Shown in pieces: positions 22,542 through 31,021 of a stretch of DNA of 32,030 nt (its first letter is position 1; each line of letters begins with the position of its first letter). A program made the position numbers and the translations under genes. The stretch spans positions 28,205 to 60,234 of the forward strand of contig JAUNJF010000021.1 in NCBI GenBank assembly GCA_030533405.1. The letters are read 5' to 3'. This DNA is from Eubacteriales bacterium (GTDB taxonomy: Bacteria; Bacillota; Clostridia; Lachnospirales; Lachnospiraceae). Below the pieces are notes generated by a model. It saw only the letters and a list, made by a program, of their open reading frames with translations, was not told the DNA's origin and ran no database searches.

Positions 22542-23593
22542 TTACTCCTTAATCTCACCTGCGTCGAATACTTCATCAATTACCTGTTCCTTTTTCATTT
22601 TCATGGTTCCAGGTTTTAACGATTTCAGATATTTTTCGACATCAAATGTATTCTTGCTGTCGTAATCGGATAAGTACTTATACTGCTTATGCCTGGTTAT
22701 ATCAAACTTATCTGAGAAAAATGGTCTCACACCTCTTACCTGCATAATGCATTTTCCACCATCCATGACAGCTATCTCATCCTGGCTCATAAGCTCTTTT
22801 CCTGTCTTCTGATAATTCATACCATAGGACTGAGTTGTACCTCTGGTATCAGAAGTGTTATAAAGATCAATTGTTTCCTTACCAAGGATTTCTGCCATTT
22901 CTTTAAGAGTCGTTTTCTCTTTTCCACCTAAAAACAGGGTTGTGTCGCAGTTTCCTTCGATAGTATCTGCATTGTCTTTATAAATAGCTTTAAGCTGGGA
23001 TTTCGATTGCAAAATAATAGAAGCCGATATTTCACGCGATCTTATAGTCGCAATCAGCTTCTCGAAATTTGGAATCTGTCCGATATTCGCAAACTCATCT
23101 AAGAGACAACGAACATGAATCGGCAGTCTTCCACCATATACATCATCTGCTTTATCACACAGAAGATTGAATAACTGAGTGTACATGATACTAACAAGGA
23201 AATTAAATGTAGCATCTGTATCACTGATAATTACAAACATTGCTGTTTTCTGTTCGCCAAGAGTATCAAGTTCCAACTCATCATATGCTGTAAGGTCTCT
23301 AAGCTCTCTGATATCAAATGGAGCAAGCCTTGCACCACATGAAATTAAAATACTTTTTGCTGTCTTGCCGGCAGCTAATTTATATTTTGCATATTGGCGT
23401 ACAGCAAAGTGCGTTGGATCCTCAGCAGCAAGCTCTTCAAACAAAAGATCTACTGCATTTTTGAACTCTTCATCATCTTCTCTGGCTTCACTGGCATCAA
23501 TTAAATCAATGAGCATTGAGAAGTTCTGTTCCTCTTCAGGAGCTTCATACCATATGTACGCAATAAGCGCTGTATAGTACAGTTTTTCGGCTT
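22542..23593 (-). CDS. VirD4/TraG coupling protein, exon 2 (C-terminal part)
   Basis: This is the 3' exon of the coupling protein. It opens within the codons for KAEKLYYTALIAYIWYEAP and continues to the Walker B region CLLDEFANIGQIPNFEKL (about residue 424 of the joined protein) and the QSKSQL sensor stretch. Joined to exon 1 (26330-27125), it gives 1848 nt, 615 codons plus stop, with the expected family sequence across the join (FWV-KAEK). An ATG at 23516 could start an N-truncated product, but it has no ribosome-binding site and would lack Walker A. VirD4 proteins are hexameric ATPases that hand relaxase-bound DNA to the channel. Confidence 0.92.
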
Positions 23594-23642
23594 ATGACAA
23601 TAGGTAAGACTTTGAAGTTATCTCCGTCTTTTCCCCTGTCCC

Positions 23643-23676
23643 ACACCGGACATGCGACTTTCACCGCATCCGGCGT
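23643..23676 (-). ncRNA. Group II intron domain V
   Basis: This is a 34-nt hairpin with outer arms ACGCCGG and CCGGTGT, upper stem GCGGT/GTCGC and a GAAA tetraloop. It lies 48 nt before the intron 3' end. The catalytic-triad position reads CGC where many introns have AGC. Domain V is the most conserved part of the ribozyme, and its presence supports a splicing-competent intron. Confidence 0.85.
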
Positions 23677-23725
23677 TCCATCGATTGTCTTCACAAGCAT
23701 TTAATCAATCACCATTTATTACGCA

Positions 23726-25633
23726 TTAATCTATTGCAGATAGATTCGCCTGCTTTCGCAGACTATTAATTTTTACTAACATTTTATTTGTTATCTCAAG
23801 AGATTGTGATGTGGCTTTTAATATCTGTTGCGATGTTTCCTGCAACAGAGGCATATACCTTTTGTGAATCAGAATCATATTTTTGTAGCGCTCCTCACCA
23901 CCATTATCTTTTGGTTTCTTCAACCAACCTACGATATCAGATGCACTCTGAAACTCTTCTCCACTGATTGCACATTTTCCATGCTGTGCAGAATAAAGTG
24001 AAATCCTGCTATCCATGTATTCTGTGCTTCGACCGTTTGACACTTGCTCTCTTAATTCTCTTAACAAAAATACATTAAGGTTTAGATTGCTATGTATAAG
24101 TGCCCTTCCTTCGGCTGTGTAGCTACATACAGCCGACCTTTTAGCCATTGGTATTTTGTTTTTGATATAGGCTATCGGATAAATCATTTGGTCTATTCCT
24201 GCAACATATCTAATCATTTTGGAATTTCCAAACCGTTCTTTTTCTGCTTGGGTAATAGTTCCACCCTCGCGTTTAAGCTGACAGCCCTTTTCTGTATTAA
24301 GCCTGTTGGTTAATACCGTCATAACTCGTCTATGTATGTCCCTGCAATCAATACTGATACAGGTTGCAAGCTGATAATAATTCTGTATTCCAAGAACCAT
24401 TGAATTGAATAACTGAATTTCTCCAAGGCATGTTTTCTTTTCTCTTGGTCTAGCTATATTTTTAGCTTGCTCCACTAACTTGTCTGTTTCAATTTTAACC
24501 TTTTTGTCACAGATTGCTGATTGTACAATATATTTATGGTGCTTTGGTCTTACCCTAATCTTGAACCCTAAAAACTCCGACCACCTCTTACGAGTATTAA
24601 CAATCCTTGTCTTTTCGGGTGAAACCTCAAGTTTTAACCTCTCTTCAATCCACTTTGTAACAGCTTCTTTTGTCTTTATTGCATCTTCTTTGGTCTTACA
24701 GAATATCCTAAAATCATCAGCATATCTTACAATATGCATTTCCTTTAGCTCCGTATTCTTCATAAGCCTGTAACCATCGCTCTTGTCAAATACTTCTGTC
24801 TTTCCTATTATTCGATGTCTGCCTCTGCTAGTTGCAACGTGGTGTTCTTCCCATTGGCTAGCAACCCACCAATCAAGTTCATTAAGTACGATATTTGCTA
24901 GTAGCGGTGAAATGATACCGCCCTGCGGTGTTCCCTTGTCTGGTATTACAGTAGAACCGTCTGGCATCCGTATGGGTGCTGTCAGTATTCTCTTTATTAC
25001 AAAAATCAACTGTTTGTCCTGTATTCCAAGCGACCATATCTGCTTCATTAACTTACTATGATTTACATTATCAAAGAATCCTTTGATATCGAATTCTATA
25101 ACATAGTGCATGTTCATCATTTGAAGCATGGTATAAGTTCTGTTAATGGCATGTTCAACCGAACGGTTAGGACGAAAGCCATAGCTGTGATTGTAAAACT
25201 TTGCTTCGCATATGGGCTCTAATATTTGTTTAATGCATTGTTGTATAAGCCTGTCCCATATACATGGAATACCTAACGGACGCGTCTTTCCGTTTGGTTT
25301 CGGGATATCCTTTCGCCGTACAGGTTTTGGTCTGTACCCATGATTGCTCCCTGTGACTATAAACCTCACTTTCTCGATAACTTCTTCGGGTGTTTTTCTC
25401 CCGATGTCAGTAATGTTTTTGTTATCTGTTCCTGCCGTGTAGCTTCCCCCATTAGCCTTTATGTTTCTATAGGCTAACAAAATGTTATCGCGTGAAAGAA
25501 TCAAACTCATAAGATTACTGAAGTTCTCTCCATTCTTGCTCTTCTGATAAAGTTCATCAAAAGTTTGTTGCATGCCGTAGTATTCTGCATGTCTTAGGTC
25601 TTCTACACATAGACTTTTGTCTTTCTTTGGCAT
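23726..25633 (-). CDS. ltrA: Group II intron reverse transcriptase/maturase
   Basis: This is a 635-residue LtrA-type protein. The reverse-transcriptase domain spans about 50-400 with PLGIPCIWDRLIQQ, FNHSYGFRP-like FYNHSYGFRPNRS, TPQGGIISPLLANI and the catalytic YADD at 304-307. The maturase X domain follows (about 410-520). The C-terminal HNH zone (from CAISGEE near 555) is degenerate: one Cys remains and the usual His-His is replaced by VGWLKKP, though NGGEE and NMILIHKRY survive. AAAGGAGGTGAT precedes the ATG. The protein should help the host intron splice and, with weaker or no second-strand cleavage, retrohome. Confidence 0.95.
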   Translation of the reverse strand: MPKKDKSLCVEDLRHAEYYGMQQTFDELYQKSKNGENFSNLMSLILSRDNILLAYRNIKANGGSYTAGTDNKNITDIGRKTPEEVIEKVRFIVTGSNHGYRPKPVRRKDIPKPNGKTRPLGIPCIWDRLIQQCIKQILEPICEAKFYNHSYGFRPNRSVEHAINRTYTMLQMMNMHYVIEFDIKGFFDNVNHSKLMKQIWSLGIQDKQLIFVIKRILTAPIRMPDGSTVIPDKGTPQGGIISPLLANIVLNELDWWVASQWEEHHVATSRGRHRIIGKTEVFDKSDGYRLMKNTELKEMHIVRYADDFRIFCKTKEDAIKTKEAVTKWIEERLKLEVSPEKTRIVNTRKRWSEFLGFKIRVRPKHHKYIVQSAICDKKVKIETDKLVEQAKNIARPREKKTCLGEIQLFNSMVLGIQNYYQLATCISIDCRDIHRRVMTVLTNRLNTEKGCQLKREGGTITQAEKERFGNSKMIRYVAGIDQMIYPIAYIKNKIPMAKRSAVCSYTAEGRALIHSNLNLNVFLLRELREQVSNGRSTEYMDSRISLYSAQHGKCAISGEEFQSASDIVGWLKKPKDNGGEERYKNMILIHKRYMPLLQETSQQILKATSQSLEITNKMLVKINSLRKQANLSAID

Positions 25634-26329
25634 AAGGCATCACCTCCTTTTGAAGTGACCCTTTTGGTCTTACTCGAATCCTTATTATAGATTGAATAAT
25701 GCCTGTTTATTTCAACCGACTTGAGGCCATTCCTCCTTTTCCCATTACAGGAAATATCACAAGTTCGACCTCTACTTTTCAGCACCGATTAATCCGCTTA
25801 TTATTCTTCGTCGGAATATCCCATAGGGACTCGATACCTTTCCTTGTTCCGATAATTCTATCTGTGCATATATTTTTAGGTTTCTGCTATAGTCCTGCTA
25901 GCTTGGTAATGCCTGTAACTTCACATGGTCGTTCGTAGGGCAAATTTCTACTAAACCACACTAGCTATGCTTAAACATACCCATACATTTCTATATGGTC
26001 TTCTTCTAGAACCGTACATTCGCAGATTCGTCAGTATCCCCGCCAAGGCATACATTCTAACCATGAATATTTTATAGAATCTTGGTCTATAGGTAACATA
26101 CCTCACCGCTGAGGCACTTTCGGAATCCTTTGGCAGGATTCTACGGTTACTCTCGACCGTTGTCACGGAACTCCACACCCCAGCCATTACAGCTGACGCA
26201 TGTCCGTCAAGACTAGGCGTTTCAAGGCGTTACCCTATCATTCCACCTATCGAATTATCAGTTCACAGACTGAAATATTAAATTTTCACGCTGTGCGCAG
26301 ACTTTTTACCGCCTGCGAACAAGTCGTAC

Positions 26330-27125
26330 TGACCCAGAAATCTTCCGTGGCCTGTGCGCCTTCTCCCTTAGTATTAACAATGATCGTATTTACTAACTTT
26401 AATATGTCCTTTTCACTTCTGATATAAGCAAAAGGATTGTAATGATTTGACTTTGTAAAGTTGATAGTATTCAGCACTTTGATACGGTATCCGTTGTCAA
26501 AAAGCAGCTTACCAACTTCTAACAAAATCGTTCCTTTCGGATCAGTACACACATACGAACTGTGCATCTGCATTATGTTAGGCTTAACAAAGAATCTTGT
26601 CTTACCTGAACCAGAACCACCTATAATTAACACATTTTTATTACGCGCATATTTAGGTGAACTCGGTCTTCCGTTCATCTGCAGTCTTTCTGTCTGTGTA
26701 AGAAGAATGTTATTTTCAAAATTTTCCTTGTCCATATATGGTTCAATATCCTTAGGTGTTCCCCATCTGGCTGAACCATACTCTTCACCATGTCTGAACT
26801 TCTTGGCATTCTTTGCCTTAAAATATACTATCAGCCTCATACCAACACCAAATGCCACTCCTATAAGTAAATCCATAGGATGAAAACTCGGCATTGGATT
26901 CTGAAATGCTGCATTACTTGCCAGGGAATCCATCAACCGGTTTAAGGTATCAGAACCTTCCGTGATACGATATCCATAATAAAACTTATCTGCCACATAT
27001 CCAAAGATGGCATATGGCAGTACCTTAAGAATGACCCTCTTTGGTTCCAGGGATTTGGTCTTACTCTTAATTGTCTTTGGGATATTCTTTAGATCCTTGG
27101 TAATGCCTTGAATGATATTACCCAT
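26330..27125 (-). CDS. VirD4/TraG coupling protein, exon 1 (N-terminal part)
   Basis: This 5' exon encodes residues 1-265 plus one base. Two membrane helices (about 32-50 and 85-103) anchor the protein. SARWGTPKDI and then Walker A GGSGSGKT (near 170) follow. Family sequence continues to ATEDFWV, where the group II intron begins; without splicing the frame runs into the intron and stops after 14 foreign codons at 26286. The start overlaps the stop of the PcfB gene by one base (TAATG), as in related elements. Confidence 0.93.
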
Positions 27126-27630: not shown

Positions 27631-28434
27631 TTAATCAATACCATTCTCTGCAAAATTTTTGATTTTCTCCATGAGTTCATCACTAGAAAGATTAAGATTG
27701 TAACACTCATATACATTTCCCATGAACACATGGAACTCATATGCTTTTTCATTATTACCTTCAAGAATCTTGTCAATACGAGCAAATTCTCCATCATTTG
27801 TTAGCCAGATTTCATGAAAAATAATAAGGTCCATAATATTATCTTTTCTGATTGATCCAATATTCGTATCGAGAATCTTACATGCTGCTACATCAAGAAC
27901 ATTTTCTCCAAAACTCTTCTGATGAAAACCAATCTCAGCCACAGCATCATTTTGTTTTTTCATTCCCCAAATGACTCTGTTATAAATGCTGTCCATAATT
28001 GGTTCAAGTTCTTTTTTTGCCAGTTCCTGCCTTTTAAGTTCATCAAAATCACTGTGTCTTCCTTCATTTTTCCAACAGTCATTAATAAGCATAATAAATG
28101 CATCTTCAACCATTTCACGACTTATAGTATCCTTATCGCTTGCCGTAAACTTTTTATTATATGGCTCTGAAAGAATATCATCTGAAGATATGAAATCGAA
28201 ATCAAACTCATCATCAAGATTTTCATCGAATAAAGATTCCTGTTCTTTTTCATACTCTTCATATTCTTTCATTTCAGCCTCGAATTCTTTATCATCCTCG
28301 TACTGATCAATTTCTTTCCGGATTCTCTTACTTATCCAATCACCAAGAGAATAGTTTATCCCCTGCACAATTGGAATAGCAGCTAATCCTGCCACCGCAC
28401 CACCTAACACACTAAGTATTACTTTCTTTTTCAT
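27631..28434 (-). CDS. Unrecognised membrane-anchored protein, 267 aa
   Basis: I do not recognise a family. One N-terminal hydrophobic helix (about 4-27, VILSVLGGAVAGLAAIPIV) is followed by a very acidic segment (40-80, rich in Glu/Asp/Tyr/Phe). A probably helical cytoplasmic domain follows, including IMDSIYNRVIWGMKKQND and FHEIWLTNDGEFARID. There is no catalytic signature. TGGAGGAATTTCAAA precedes the ATG. It lies 11 bp upstream of pcfB and downstream of the conserved leader hairpin, so it is the first gene of the coupling-protein transcript. Confidence 0.75.
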   Translation of the reverse strand: MKKKVILSVLGGAVAGLAAIPIVQGINYSLGDWISKRIRKEIDQYEDDKEFEAEMKEYEEYEKEQESLFDENLDDEFDFDFISSDDILSEPYNKKFTASDKDTISREMVEDAFIMLINDCWKNEGRHSDFDELKRQELAKKELEPIMDSIYNRVIWGMKKQNDAVAEIGFHQKSFGENVLDVAACKILDTNIGSIRKDNIMDLIIFHEIWLTNDGEFARIDKILEGNNEKAYEFHVFMGNVYECYNLNLSSDELMEKIKNFAENGID

Positions 28435-28485: not shown

Positions 28486-28522
28486 AAAAAGAGCAGCTGA
28501 CTTATTTCTAAATCAACTGCCC
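28486..28522 (-). terminator. Intrinsic terminator or attenuator, copy B
   Basis: The minus-strand RNA forms a stem from GGGCAGTTGATTTA, a GAAA loop and TAAGTCAGCTGCTC, followed by five T. It stands about 50 bp upstream of the 267-aa gene, directly after a promoter-like sequence, so it would stop or attenuate transcription into the pcfB-virD4 operon. Stem and preceding TACAGCGT are shared with the element at 12746-12790. Confidence 0.72.
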
Positions 28523-28533
28523 TTACGCTGTAC

Positions 28534-28607: not shown

Positions 28608-28656
28608 TATAAGTCCGCGAAATTTGCATTTCCGAGGCACATTTCGCGGGCTTATA
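28608..28656. repeat. 49-bp hairpin, distal end of the ATPase cassette
   Basis: Arms TATAAGTCCGCGAAAT and ATTTCGCGGGCTTATA (one mismatch, G-U pairable) enclose a 17-nt loop. The hairpin begins one base after the ATPase stop codon. There is no T-tract. The same arms and the same total length occur at 30137-30185, in the same orientation. Confidence 0.88.
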
Positions 28657-28657
28657 A

Positions 28658-30100
28658 TCATTCACAAAACAAATCATCTAGTAACACTTGTGTTCCAACA
28701 AGTCCACTATATTTATTTCGTTTAACTCCAAATGTTGTAATCATAACTAGCTGAATTGTCTTCTTGCAACTAGTAACCTTTGTAAATGTTGATATCTTAT
28801 TTCTCAGGTTTGCATCGTATGCTTTATCAATGTCAAATTCACTAAGAGAGTATTTCATCTCACAAAGAGAAACCACATAATCTCTTCTGTCTATCAACAA
28901 ATCTATTTGAGCACCTGTAATACATTTTTCATCATCTGACTTTACAAACCAAGATGCTTCTTCAGATAGAACTCCAGAAATACCAAGCTTAGACTTTATT
29001 TGTTTTATATGATCCTTACATATTCTTTCAAAAGTTAAACCCTCCCATGCTTTTCTTGAAGCATTATCAACTGAATTACTCCAAAAATGTTCATCCTTAC
29101 CATAATGTCCTCTTATATATTTAAAATAAAAAAGTGTAAAGTAATCTGATAATTGATATAAGGATTCTTTCTTTTTTCTTCCATAAAAATCACAAACAAC
29201 AACGAACCCTGATAGGCTAAGATTCTTCAAAATTTTACTTATATCCCCACCTTTAGAGATTCCTACCCTATCACATATTTCGCCCCTCGTTAAGCCGCCT
29301 TTCTTTTCGCTAAGTGCTTCTACAACAGCTACATAATATTCGCTATTAGTAAATAATGTATTATACAGATGTTCAAACTCATCCCACAACTCACCCTTTT
29401 TCTTAAAAAATAAACGGTCAATATTCTGATGCAATGATTCTTCTGAATCCAAAAGATTCAAATAATATGGTATTCCTCCCATAATCATATAACATTCAGC
29501 AATCTCATATTTAGACCAATAAATTTCTTTGCTAGTAAGGAATTCTTCAACTTCATGTAAGCTAAAAGGCTCCAAGTACAATCTACATGTCTGTCTATTA
29601 AATAATCCACCTTTATTCTTAGTTATTTTTTCATCCATCCAGGAAGTCGCAGAACCACATAAGACAAATATAAAATTATGTTTTGTTGAAGCATAATCGT
29701 TCCAAAAATACTCAAATGCAGACAAAAATCCCGATTTTTTTCCATCTAGCCAGGGTAACTCATCAAGAAAAACTACCTGCTTATTATTTGCATCTAATCC
29801 ATCCATATATTCTCTCAGATAATTAAATGCCTCTATCCAATCTTTAGGAATAGTATACTTTTTTTCTGATCGTCTATTCAACTCGGCTGTAAAATTCTGA
29901 AGTTGTTCCTTTCTTTTTTGCCCATATACTCCAGTTAATTTAAAAGCAAACGTATTTTCAAAAAACTCATTTATCAAATATGTTTTTCCAACACGTCTTC
30001 TTCCATATACGACAACTAATTGAGCTGAATTAGAACGTAAACATCTACTCAAGCGCTCACATTCTTCATTTCTACCAATAATACTATTATTCTTTTTCAT
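28658..30100 (-). CDS. ATPase with C-terminal DUF234-like nuclease domain
   Basis: This 480-residue protein of the archaeal-type ATPase_2 family has Walker A GRRRVGKT at 33-40 and Walker B VVFLDELPW near 108-116. FVLCGSATSWM and LYLEPFSLHEVEEFL follow. A winged-helix part lies near 265-310 (GEICDRVGISKGGDISKIL). The C-terminal part carries AQIDLLIDRRD followed by CEMKYS, which fits the D...ExK core of the PD-(D/E)xK fold reported for DUF234. Function in bacteria is unknown; nuclease activity is inferred. It is not a normal conjugation gene. The ATG has no ribosome-binding site and lies 6 nt after a -10 box, so the mRNA is probably leaderless. AT content is higher than in the neighbours. Confidence 0.88.
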   Translation of the reverse strand: MKKNNSIIGRNEECERLSRCLRSNSAQLVVVYGRRRVGKTYLINEFFENTFAFKLTGVYGQKRKEQLQNFTAELNRRSEKKYTIPKDWIEAFNYLREYMDGLDANNKQVVFLDELPWLDGKKSGFLSAFEYFWNDYASTKHNFIFVLCGSATSWMDEKITKNKGGLFNRQTCRLYLEPFSLHEVEEFLTSKEIYWSKYEIAECYMIMGGIPYYLNLLDSEESLHQNIDRLFFKKKGELWDEFEHLYNTLFTNSEYYVAVVEALSEKKGGLTRGEICDRVGISKGGDISKILKNLSLSGFVVVCDFYGRKKKESLYQLSDYFTLFYFKYIRGHYGKDEHFWSNSVDNASRKAWEGLTFERICKDHIKQIKSKLGISGVLSEEASWFVKSDDEKCITGAQIDLLIDRRDYVVSLCEMKYSLSEFDIDKAYDANLRNKISTFTKVTSCKKTIQLVMITTFGVKRNKYSGLVGTQVLLDDLFCE

Positions 30101-30106
30101 AATATG

Positions 30107-30135
30107 AATATAGCATTCTCCAACGTAATTGTCAA
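30107..30135 (-). promoter_or_regulatory. Strong promoter of the ATPase gene (leaderless)
   Basis: On the minus strand TTGACA (30130-30135), a 17-bp spacer and TATATT (30107-30112) form a near-consensus promoter. Only six bases (CATATT) separate the -10 box from the ATG at 30100, so the start point would fall on or next to the start codon. The -35 box adjoins the hairpin at 30137. Confidence 0.75.
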
Positions 30136-30136
30136 T

Positions 30137-30185
30137 TATAAGTCCGCGAAATCTCTGTTTTTATTCCACTTTTCGCGGACTTATA
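30137..30185. repeat. 49-bp hairpin, proximal end of the ATPase cassette
   Basis: Perfect 15-bp arms, TATAAGTCCGCGAAA and TTTCGCGGACTTATA, enclose a 19-nt loop. The arms match those at 28608-28656; the loops differ except for a shared CAC near the right side. The 135 bp between this hairpin and the 215-aa gene hold no intact gene, only a short open stub discussed in the findings. Confidence 0.88.
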
Positions 30186-30320: not shown

Positions 30321-30968
30321 TTATGCTACTACAAAGACAGTGTAAAGTTTGGCACATATCATTCCATCATATTCCCAGATATCATCAAGAAGAAGACACT
30401 GGAACAATACTTCATTTATATCGGCAAGTCTCATAATTCTTCTATAAAGAGAATCATCATCTTTTATTTCCATATTCACTGCTATATCAGCTCTGGCGGA
30501 TTCACATTCACAATACAGACCAATAATATAAGGATTCGACATTATAAAACCATAGGTCTCTTTATCATTATATGTGTATCTGCATTTATCTTTTTCTTCC
30601 TGTGACAGTGAAAAGCAGCATACTGCTTCTTCCAAAACACAGTCACCATCAAAGGAAGGATTTATCTTCTTGGCTCTTCTTAAGGCATCCACTGATATAT
30701 TCATTCTTTCGAGAATCGATTTTGTTCTTGTGAACTCCGGTGCCTTTGCCATAGGTTTCATATATACATTGTTTGCTACAGTCGCCTCACCGGTACGATA
30801 CTCATTTAATCTTATTAACCAGTTAAGTACCTTTTTGTAATGGTCAGCATCTGTGATCATCTTATATGAATCCTCACTAAGCTCCATCTTTTCAAACTTA
30901 AGTGGTGTTACTCTTCCTTTCTCAATCTCACGTTCCATTTTTCTTCTGACATCTCTCAATGATTCCAT
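30321..30968 (-). CDS. Unrecognised soluble protein, 215 aa
   Basis: I do not recognise a family. The start MESLRDVRRKMER is chosen because AGAAAGGA lies 7 nt upstream; the frame is open 11 codons further but without a site. It begins with a charged helix, then shows EDSYKMITDADHYKKVLNWLIRLNEY, a two-cysteine segment (AVCCFSL) near 120, and CECESARADIAVNMEIKDD. It has no membrane helix or signal peptide. The gene lies between DUF6050 and the coupling-protein operon, so it is probably part of the element core and not cargo. Confidence 0.7.
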   Translation of the reverse strand: MESLRDVRRKMEREIEKGRVTPLKFEKMELSEDSYKMITDADHYKKVLNWLIRLNEYRTGEATVANNVYMKPMAKAPEFTRTKSILERMNISVDALRRAKKINPSFDGDCVLEEAVCCFSLSQEEKDKCRYTYNDKETYGFIMSNPYIIGLYCECESARADIAVNMEIKDDDSLYRRIMRLADINEVLFQCLLLDDIWEYDGMICAKLYTVFVVA

Positions 30969-31021
30969 CTTAGTTCCTTTCTGCAATAAATTAGGAGCCA
31001 CAATCTGCAGCTCCTACATCC

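Follow-up and report, generated by a model that had tools for sequence, protein, structure and literature searches.

Palindromes framing a PDC-S27 ATPase gene are very probably read by the winged helix of its own product

Two palindromes of 49 nt frame a single gene within an integrative and conjugative element (ICE) on contig JAUNJF010000021.1 of a Eubacteriales bacterium (GCA_030533405.1), and the question raised by this locus is what the palindromes are for and what reads them. The window, which is the whole stretch of DNA analysed, spans 32,030 nt, and the gene lies on its minus strand (28658..30100) and encodes a 480-residue protein of the candidate phage-defence family PDC-S27. The upstream palindrome (30137..30185, minus strand) has arms complementary at 15 of 15 positions, a loop of 19 nt and a dyad centre approximately 60.5 nt from the ATG, and the downstream palindrome (28608..28656, minus strand) begins one base past the TGA stop codon (28660-28658) on the gene strand, with 90% complementarity across 20-nt arms and one mismatch in the outer 15 nt. 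The initial annotation of the window had described this compact order of palindrome, near-consensus promoter, leaderless gene and palindrome, with the downstream hairpin one base after the stop codon, and the arrangement, with a gene of leaderless type, was confirmed. Its remark that the two hairpins share an orientation has little meaning for near-perfect palindromes, and the pair scores both as a direct and as an inverted repeat. As set out below, the palindromes are likely to be cognate operators, or binding sites, for the product of the gene they frame, in a self-regulating cassette of an ATPase and a nuclease-like domain.

Upstream palindromes recur at homologous loci and are present in 79 of 106 loci, compared with 5.2% of the 213 other open reading frames (ORFs) that these loci contain and 1.9% of shuffles, and in 185 of 232 when all gathered loci are counted, the two counts having used slightly different windows and loop limits (the second a slightly wider window). 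One scan, in which the best 80 of 154 relatives were kept, covered records from Lachnospiraceae, Treponema, Anaerolineaceae, Fibrobacter, Bacteroidales and others, and one scan of viral contigs gave no relative. Half-sites are separated by a near-fixed distance, with a spacer of 15 or 16 nt in 86 of 135 palindromes and a middle that is unpaired and variable. Where palindromes stand in tandem, neighbouring centres are 50.5-54 nt apart in 31 of 46 pairs, and 51-55.5 nt apart in 17 of 24 in a second set, a spacing of approximately 52 nt that equals about five helical turns. Distant relatives with 25-28% identity (L098, L101, L102 and L111, the first two and the last of which match the PDC-S27 profile) also possess palindromes near the start codon, each of a different sequence.

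The identity of the reader was addressed by covariation between protein and site. The training set retained 167 of 199 loci after exact duplicates and loci with short flanks had been dropped, near-duplicates such as L008 and L088 remaining, and palindromes whose spacers were non-canonical were excluded (42 of 135 in training and 8 of 51 in the hold-out). Background-corrected mutual information was calculated between protein columns and half-site bases across 93 loci, and the top three pairs all involve the winged helix: residue 283 with base 8, residue 311 with base 10 and residue 286 with base 5. The score of the best pair, 7.83, lies above all 200 permuted maxima (highest 7.60; mean of maxima 5.5). 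The winged-helix region of the window protein comprises residues 245-320, with a recognition helix at 285-296 (29141..29368, minus strand), and the predicted structure places residues 283 and 286 at the start of this helix (residues 282-287, SKGGDI; codons at 29240..29257, minus strand) and K311 in the wing between its two strands (codon at 29168..29170, minus strand).

A hold-out set fetched afterwards comprised 69 loci, 51 with an upstream palindrome and 43 with a canonical one. Base predictions were correct in 29 of 35 cases for residue 311, 22 of 34 for residue 286 and 29 of 35 for residue 283, against shuffled means of 16.4, 11.1 and 12.3, respectively, and none of 5000 shuffles reached the observed values; each of the three ranked first of 454 residues for its own base. 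After removal of four hold-out proteins more than 80% identical to training proteins, the rule outperformed copying from the nearest relative for residues 311, 286 and 283 alike (26 vs 16 of 31, 18 vs 9 of 30 and 27 vs 12 of 31, in the order given for the predictions). As judged by covariation, residues of the DNA-binding domain set the sequence of the site across relatives. Because three winged-helix residues predict the variable half-site bases on the hold-out, the product of the gene very probably reads its own palindromes.

The site sequences are private to their genes. A search of the host genome (94 contigs, 95.8% complete) allowing up to 3 mismatches found the palindrome nowhere beyond the two sites of the cassette, and the 15-nt arm alone with up to 2 mismatches gave three extra single-arm matches, fewer than the reversed control. 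G290, a genome of another genus, carries the same segment including the cassette at 97.7% identity, and there a further palindrome match at 3 mismatches turned up once in the search and once in its control. One Bacteroidales genome (L160, L182-L201) possesses 21 PDC-S27 relatives, and the 14 with a canonical site differ pairwise at 2 to 9 of the 10 half-site bases, with a median of 5; by the rule used, the remaining seven lack a canonical site, and the statement is restricted to the 14. Several of these paralogues repeat their own site sequence after the stop codon. More generally, a palindrome of any sequence follows the gene in 20 of 108 loci, vs 9.4% of control ORFs, and 22 of 93 loci have a cognate one no more than 250 nt past the stop codon, vs 38 of 2309 mismatched pairs (1.6%), with 21 of those 22 copies within 40 nt. 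The second set gave 18 of 42 vs 15 of 630 (2.4%), with 15 of the 18 within 40 nt, and in L066, L084 and L190 the upstream palindrome array is repeated near-identically after the gene. The initial annotation had noted that the loops differ and concluded that either structure or arm sequence matters; the choice now falls mainly on sequence, as the arms behave as winged-helix half-sites.

Several observations weigh against the protein being the reader of sites at both ends of its gene. The second and third pairs (7.39 and 6.51) do not lie above all 200 permuted maxima, and 100 near-relative swaps reached a maximum of 6.99, which the first two pairs exceed and the third does not. Without correction the order is 311, 284 and 283, then 242, 246 and 28, with 286 eighth among pairs, and residues 28, 135 and 115 outside the winged helix score close; since the uncorrected ranking differs, shared ancestry is considered to add noise. 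Residue 284, strong in the uncorrected ranking, failed on the hold-out (21 of 40, P 0.23; 10 of 40, P 0.12) and was dropped as a code position. The hold-out itself was drawn from one order, and four of its 43 proteins are more than 80% identical to training proteins. No clear upstream palindrome is present in 47 of 232 loci and no cognate downstream copy in 71 of 93. Finally, the arms are symmetric beyond the coded bases, a figure inflated by the selection of palindromes for symmetry, and this is compatible with a hairpin or cruciform.

The protein itself was assigned by profile and structure. It matches the PADLOC PDC-S27 profile PDLC04984 over residues 6-478 (E 2.4e-197), as do nine of nine tested relatives, and consists of a STAND/ORC-like ATPase (approximately residues 1-235, with a Pfam ATPase_2 match), a winged helix (approximately 245-320) and a PD-(D/E)XK-like domain (approximately 347-480). 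The winged helix has a weak MarR_2 match at 259-303 (E 0.005, below the cut-off), and the AlphaFold2 secondary structure agrees on the region. The model of the C-terminal domain (28661..29062, minus strand; mean predicted local distance difference test score, pLDDT, 90.7) has two structural matches with E of 0.001 or lower, AF1548 (E 1.3e-4, template modelling (TM) score 0.52) and a McrBC chain (E 5.5e-4, TM 0.49), both of which have PD-(D/E)XK folds, and E358, D400, E414 and K416 are invariant in it. The earlier proposal of an ATPase joined to a nuclease-like domain therefore holds, and its suggestion of a defence module agrees with the predicted role of the PDC-S27 family. As to its more specific label of a DUF234 ATPase, Pfam gave no DUF234 match for the window protein, and the C-terminus of one relative reached 21.3 bits against a cut-off of 22.5.

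The effect of binding on the gene may be read from the position of the sites. The promoter TTGACA-17-TATATT (30107..30135, minus strand) is separated by one base from the upstream palindrome, leaves 6 nt between its -10 box and the ATG and matches the consensus at 11 of 12 positions, the best of six promoter-like sites in 2 kb. The scan gave fewer such sites than shuffled sequence (mean 10.2), and so the call rests on the high match and on a position conserved in homologues. Of 165 loci, 19 have a TATAAT-like box at an offset of exactly 6 nt from the ATG, the top count among offsets 3 to 40; the full leaderless-type arrangement is present in 22 loci, compared with between 1 and 8 for five other ranges of offset, and a Shine-Dalgarno match was found in one of these 22, vs 44 of the 143 others. 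Distances from palindrome centre to ATG cluster at 60-65 nt (17 of 93 loci), a class that includes the window and in which the palindrome abuts the -35 box, and at 30-40 nt (18 of 93), where the site overlaps promoter elements; in L077, by eye, TATAAT lies inside the palindrome. Owing to the overlap in the second class, repression is the simplest reading, and the placement of the sites, abutting the -35 box here and overlapping promoter elements in some relatives, most likely serves silencing of the gene by its own product.

Under such autorepression, a symmetric dimer or larger ATPase oligomer would bind through its winged helices and silence the gene from the promoter-adjacent site, and the spacing of tandem sites by about five turns is suggestive of cooperative assembly. 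With a further copy beyond the stop codon, the protein could probably hold both ends of the gene, by looping or as a roadblock, and so tighten control. Infection or another trigger would then cause an ATP-dependent change that releases the protein and frees the nuclease domain. As gene and sites remain joined in a single compact unit whose code is private, many such cassettes could coexist in a genome.

A variant that is compatible with self-binding, and possible although unlikely, is that the protein instead activates its promoter from about -60.5. A centre 60.5 nt from the start would suit an activator as well, and the 60-65 nt class, with leaderless-type promoters just after the site, is consistent with this. 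Sites centred 30-40 nt from the ATG, and the box inside the palindrome of L077, argue against activation.

A further alternative is that the cassette is an autonomous mobile or homing-like unit, in which the ATPase-nuclease would recognise the palindromes at both gene ends and move or copy what lies between them. Self-read sites do stand at both ends of some cassettes, and relatives are spread over several phyla, plasmids and phage records. Boundaries were compared in 27 close pairs, of which six were flagged (shared flanks or too short) and four more had no detected upstream palindrome, leaving 17. Left-hand homology stops no more than about 4 nt from the outer edge of the palindrome in seven of these, and for three of the seven (L042/L044, L033/L134 and L021/L024) the right-hand limit is at +10 or shortly beyond a downstream palindrome. 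In the other 10 it stops 9 to 35 nt short of that edge on the inner side, 12 to 24 nt beyond it, or somewhere else, and so the earlier claim that the palindromes mark the boundaries applies to 7 of 17 pairs and fails in 10. Three of the seven (L039/L047, L047/L048 and L055/L056) share downstream flanks and are not moves to a new place, L042/L044 lack a downstream palindrome, and in L020/L057 homology ends inside the gene.

Presence and absence were also compared by eye at one Butyrivibrio-type site, where the palindromes and gene of L263 sit between TTTTATGAGAG and a stop codon, a short spacer takes their place in L264, and L265 and L260 lack the gene and keep half a palindrome. L260, the gene-free sister of L259, shows one half-site followed by unrelated letters and is a remnant rather than a clean empty site, and no target duplication was seen at this site. 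These sequence comparisons indicate that in some cases the cassette has come and gone as a compact unit, and nothing in them points to self-driven movement. Pfam gave no match to a recombinase or transposase for the window protein, no search having been made for a transposase acting in trans. Together with the confinement of the palindrome to this gene in its own genome and the differing canonical sites of the 14 paralogues, these points make autonomous movement improbable.

The empty-site comparison was confined to relatives because both ICE neighbour genes are too rare in the genomes searched: the one at 27631-28434 had a match in 1 of 115 genomes, its own, and the one at 30321-31001 in 2 of 391, its own and G115 (36% identity; locus L267). 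Two further comparisons were set aside. L208 and L209 are an identical 2.78-kb stretch with the cassette on two contigs of one genome; identity over 2780 bases including the flanks makes this apparent duplication uninformative on the ends. Wolbachia phage WO records L125 and L127-L132 share a palindromic repeat in the gp18-gp19 gap, and one WO record carries a PDC-S27-like relative (37% identity) between gp18 and gp19; as WO records that lack the gene show, by eye, the palindromes of this gap too, these cannot be read as ends of the cassette, and the phage does not serve as an empty-site comparison.

Also conceivable but doubtful is recognition by the cassette of its own locus, which would make it a minimal NLR-like system, immune or selfish. 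The winged-helix code would both silence the gene and mark its two ends as 'self' DNA, and the nuclease would be triggered by palindromes that are foreign or unoccupied, or by loss of the bound array. If true, self-locus recognition would drive retention of the cassette, homing or the exclusion of rivals, and about 20 such cassettes could coexist in one genome through their private codes.

It is very unlikely that the palindromes act as RNA or DNA structures, such as a terminator, attenuator or cruciform, rather than as protein sites. Their folding energy is low, with z-scores of -6.2 to -7.5 over four strands and none of 200 shuffles folding as well on any strand, and their symmetry extends past the coded bases. 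Against this stand the near-fixed half-site spacing around an unpaired middle, the residue-to-base code, a separate terminator-like stem with a T tail approximately 130 nt past the stop codon (28489..28524, minus strand) and the outcome for Rfam, whose two matches both lie far below gathering scores. REP-like dispersal is disfavoured by the host-genome search and by the differing sites of the paralogues. The mobilisation in trans by an IS200/IS605-like enzyme that the initial annotation had raised as possible for a non-autonomous hairpin-ended unit has hairpin-forming DNA at both ends in its favour and is extremely unlikely, given a palindrome found at up to 3 mismatches only at these two sites of the host genome, 14 paralogues whose canonical sites all differ, the many loci without a cognate downstream copy and a site sequence that follows residues of the encoded protein.

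Elsewhere in the window, the ICE coupling-protein gene (TraG/VirD4-like; 22542-27125) is in two pieces, at 26286-27125 and 22542-23516, and a reverse transcriptase ORF, of group II intron type by its look, sits between them at 23726-25633.

The PDC-S27 family, its ATPase-PD-(D/E)XK make-up and its abundance in the rumen are already known. PDC-S27 is described as an ATPase fused to a PD-(D/E)XK member, with 3503 occurrences in Archaea and 4562 in Bacteria in one survey (PMC12988326), and 2865 were counted in rumen genomes (PMC13356809); the window protein shares this make-up and matches the full-length profile. The main texts of both papers hold none of the terms 'winged', 'operator', 'promoter' or 'inverted repeat' and use 'palindrom' for CRISPR only, and published titles and abstract openings, preprints lying outside this scope, gave nothing on palindromes beside the family. 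That literature yielded no account of the cognate palindromes or their geometry, of the copy downstream or of the residue-to-base code. If readable, such a code would supply a DNA ligand for many PDC-S27 members at once and would make repression, cooperativity and release directly testable.

Among known systems, the archaeal ATPases PABY2304 and SSO1545 (2QEN and 2FNA) align with the window protein at 19-20% identity, but the alignment stops near residue 330 and leaves the C-terminal domain uncovered. Orc1/Cdc6 initiators read origin recognition boxes, whereas the window protein has a nuclease-like domain and no match to that family above the cut-off (TIGR02928, 12.9 bits against 181.3). REP/RAYT and IS200/IS605 elements place palindromes around a gene whose product reads them; the palindrome of the window differs in having a private sequence without dispersed genomic copies, beside a protein that has no such transposase domain. 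Compared with STAND/NLR-type ATPases such as APAF1, CED-4, plant NLRs and Avs3, the window protein is short, at 480 residues, and lacks a long C-terminal sensor region, and its winged helix appears to recognise DNA beside the gene that encodes it. With a readable code, the protein would offer an example of a single chain, tied to its own gene, in which an immune-type ATPase is combined with domains of DNA-reading and nuclease-like type.
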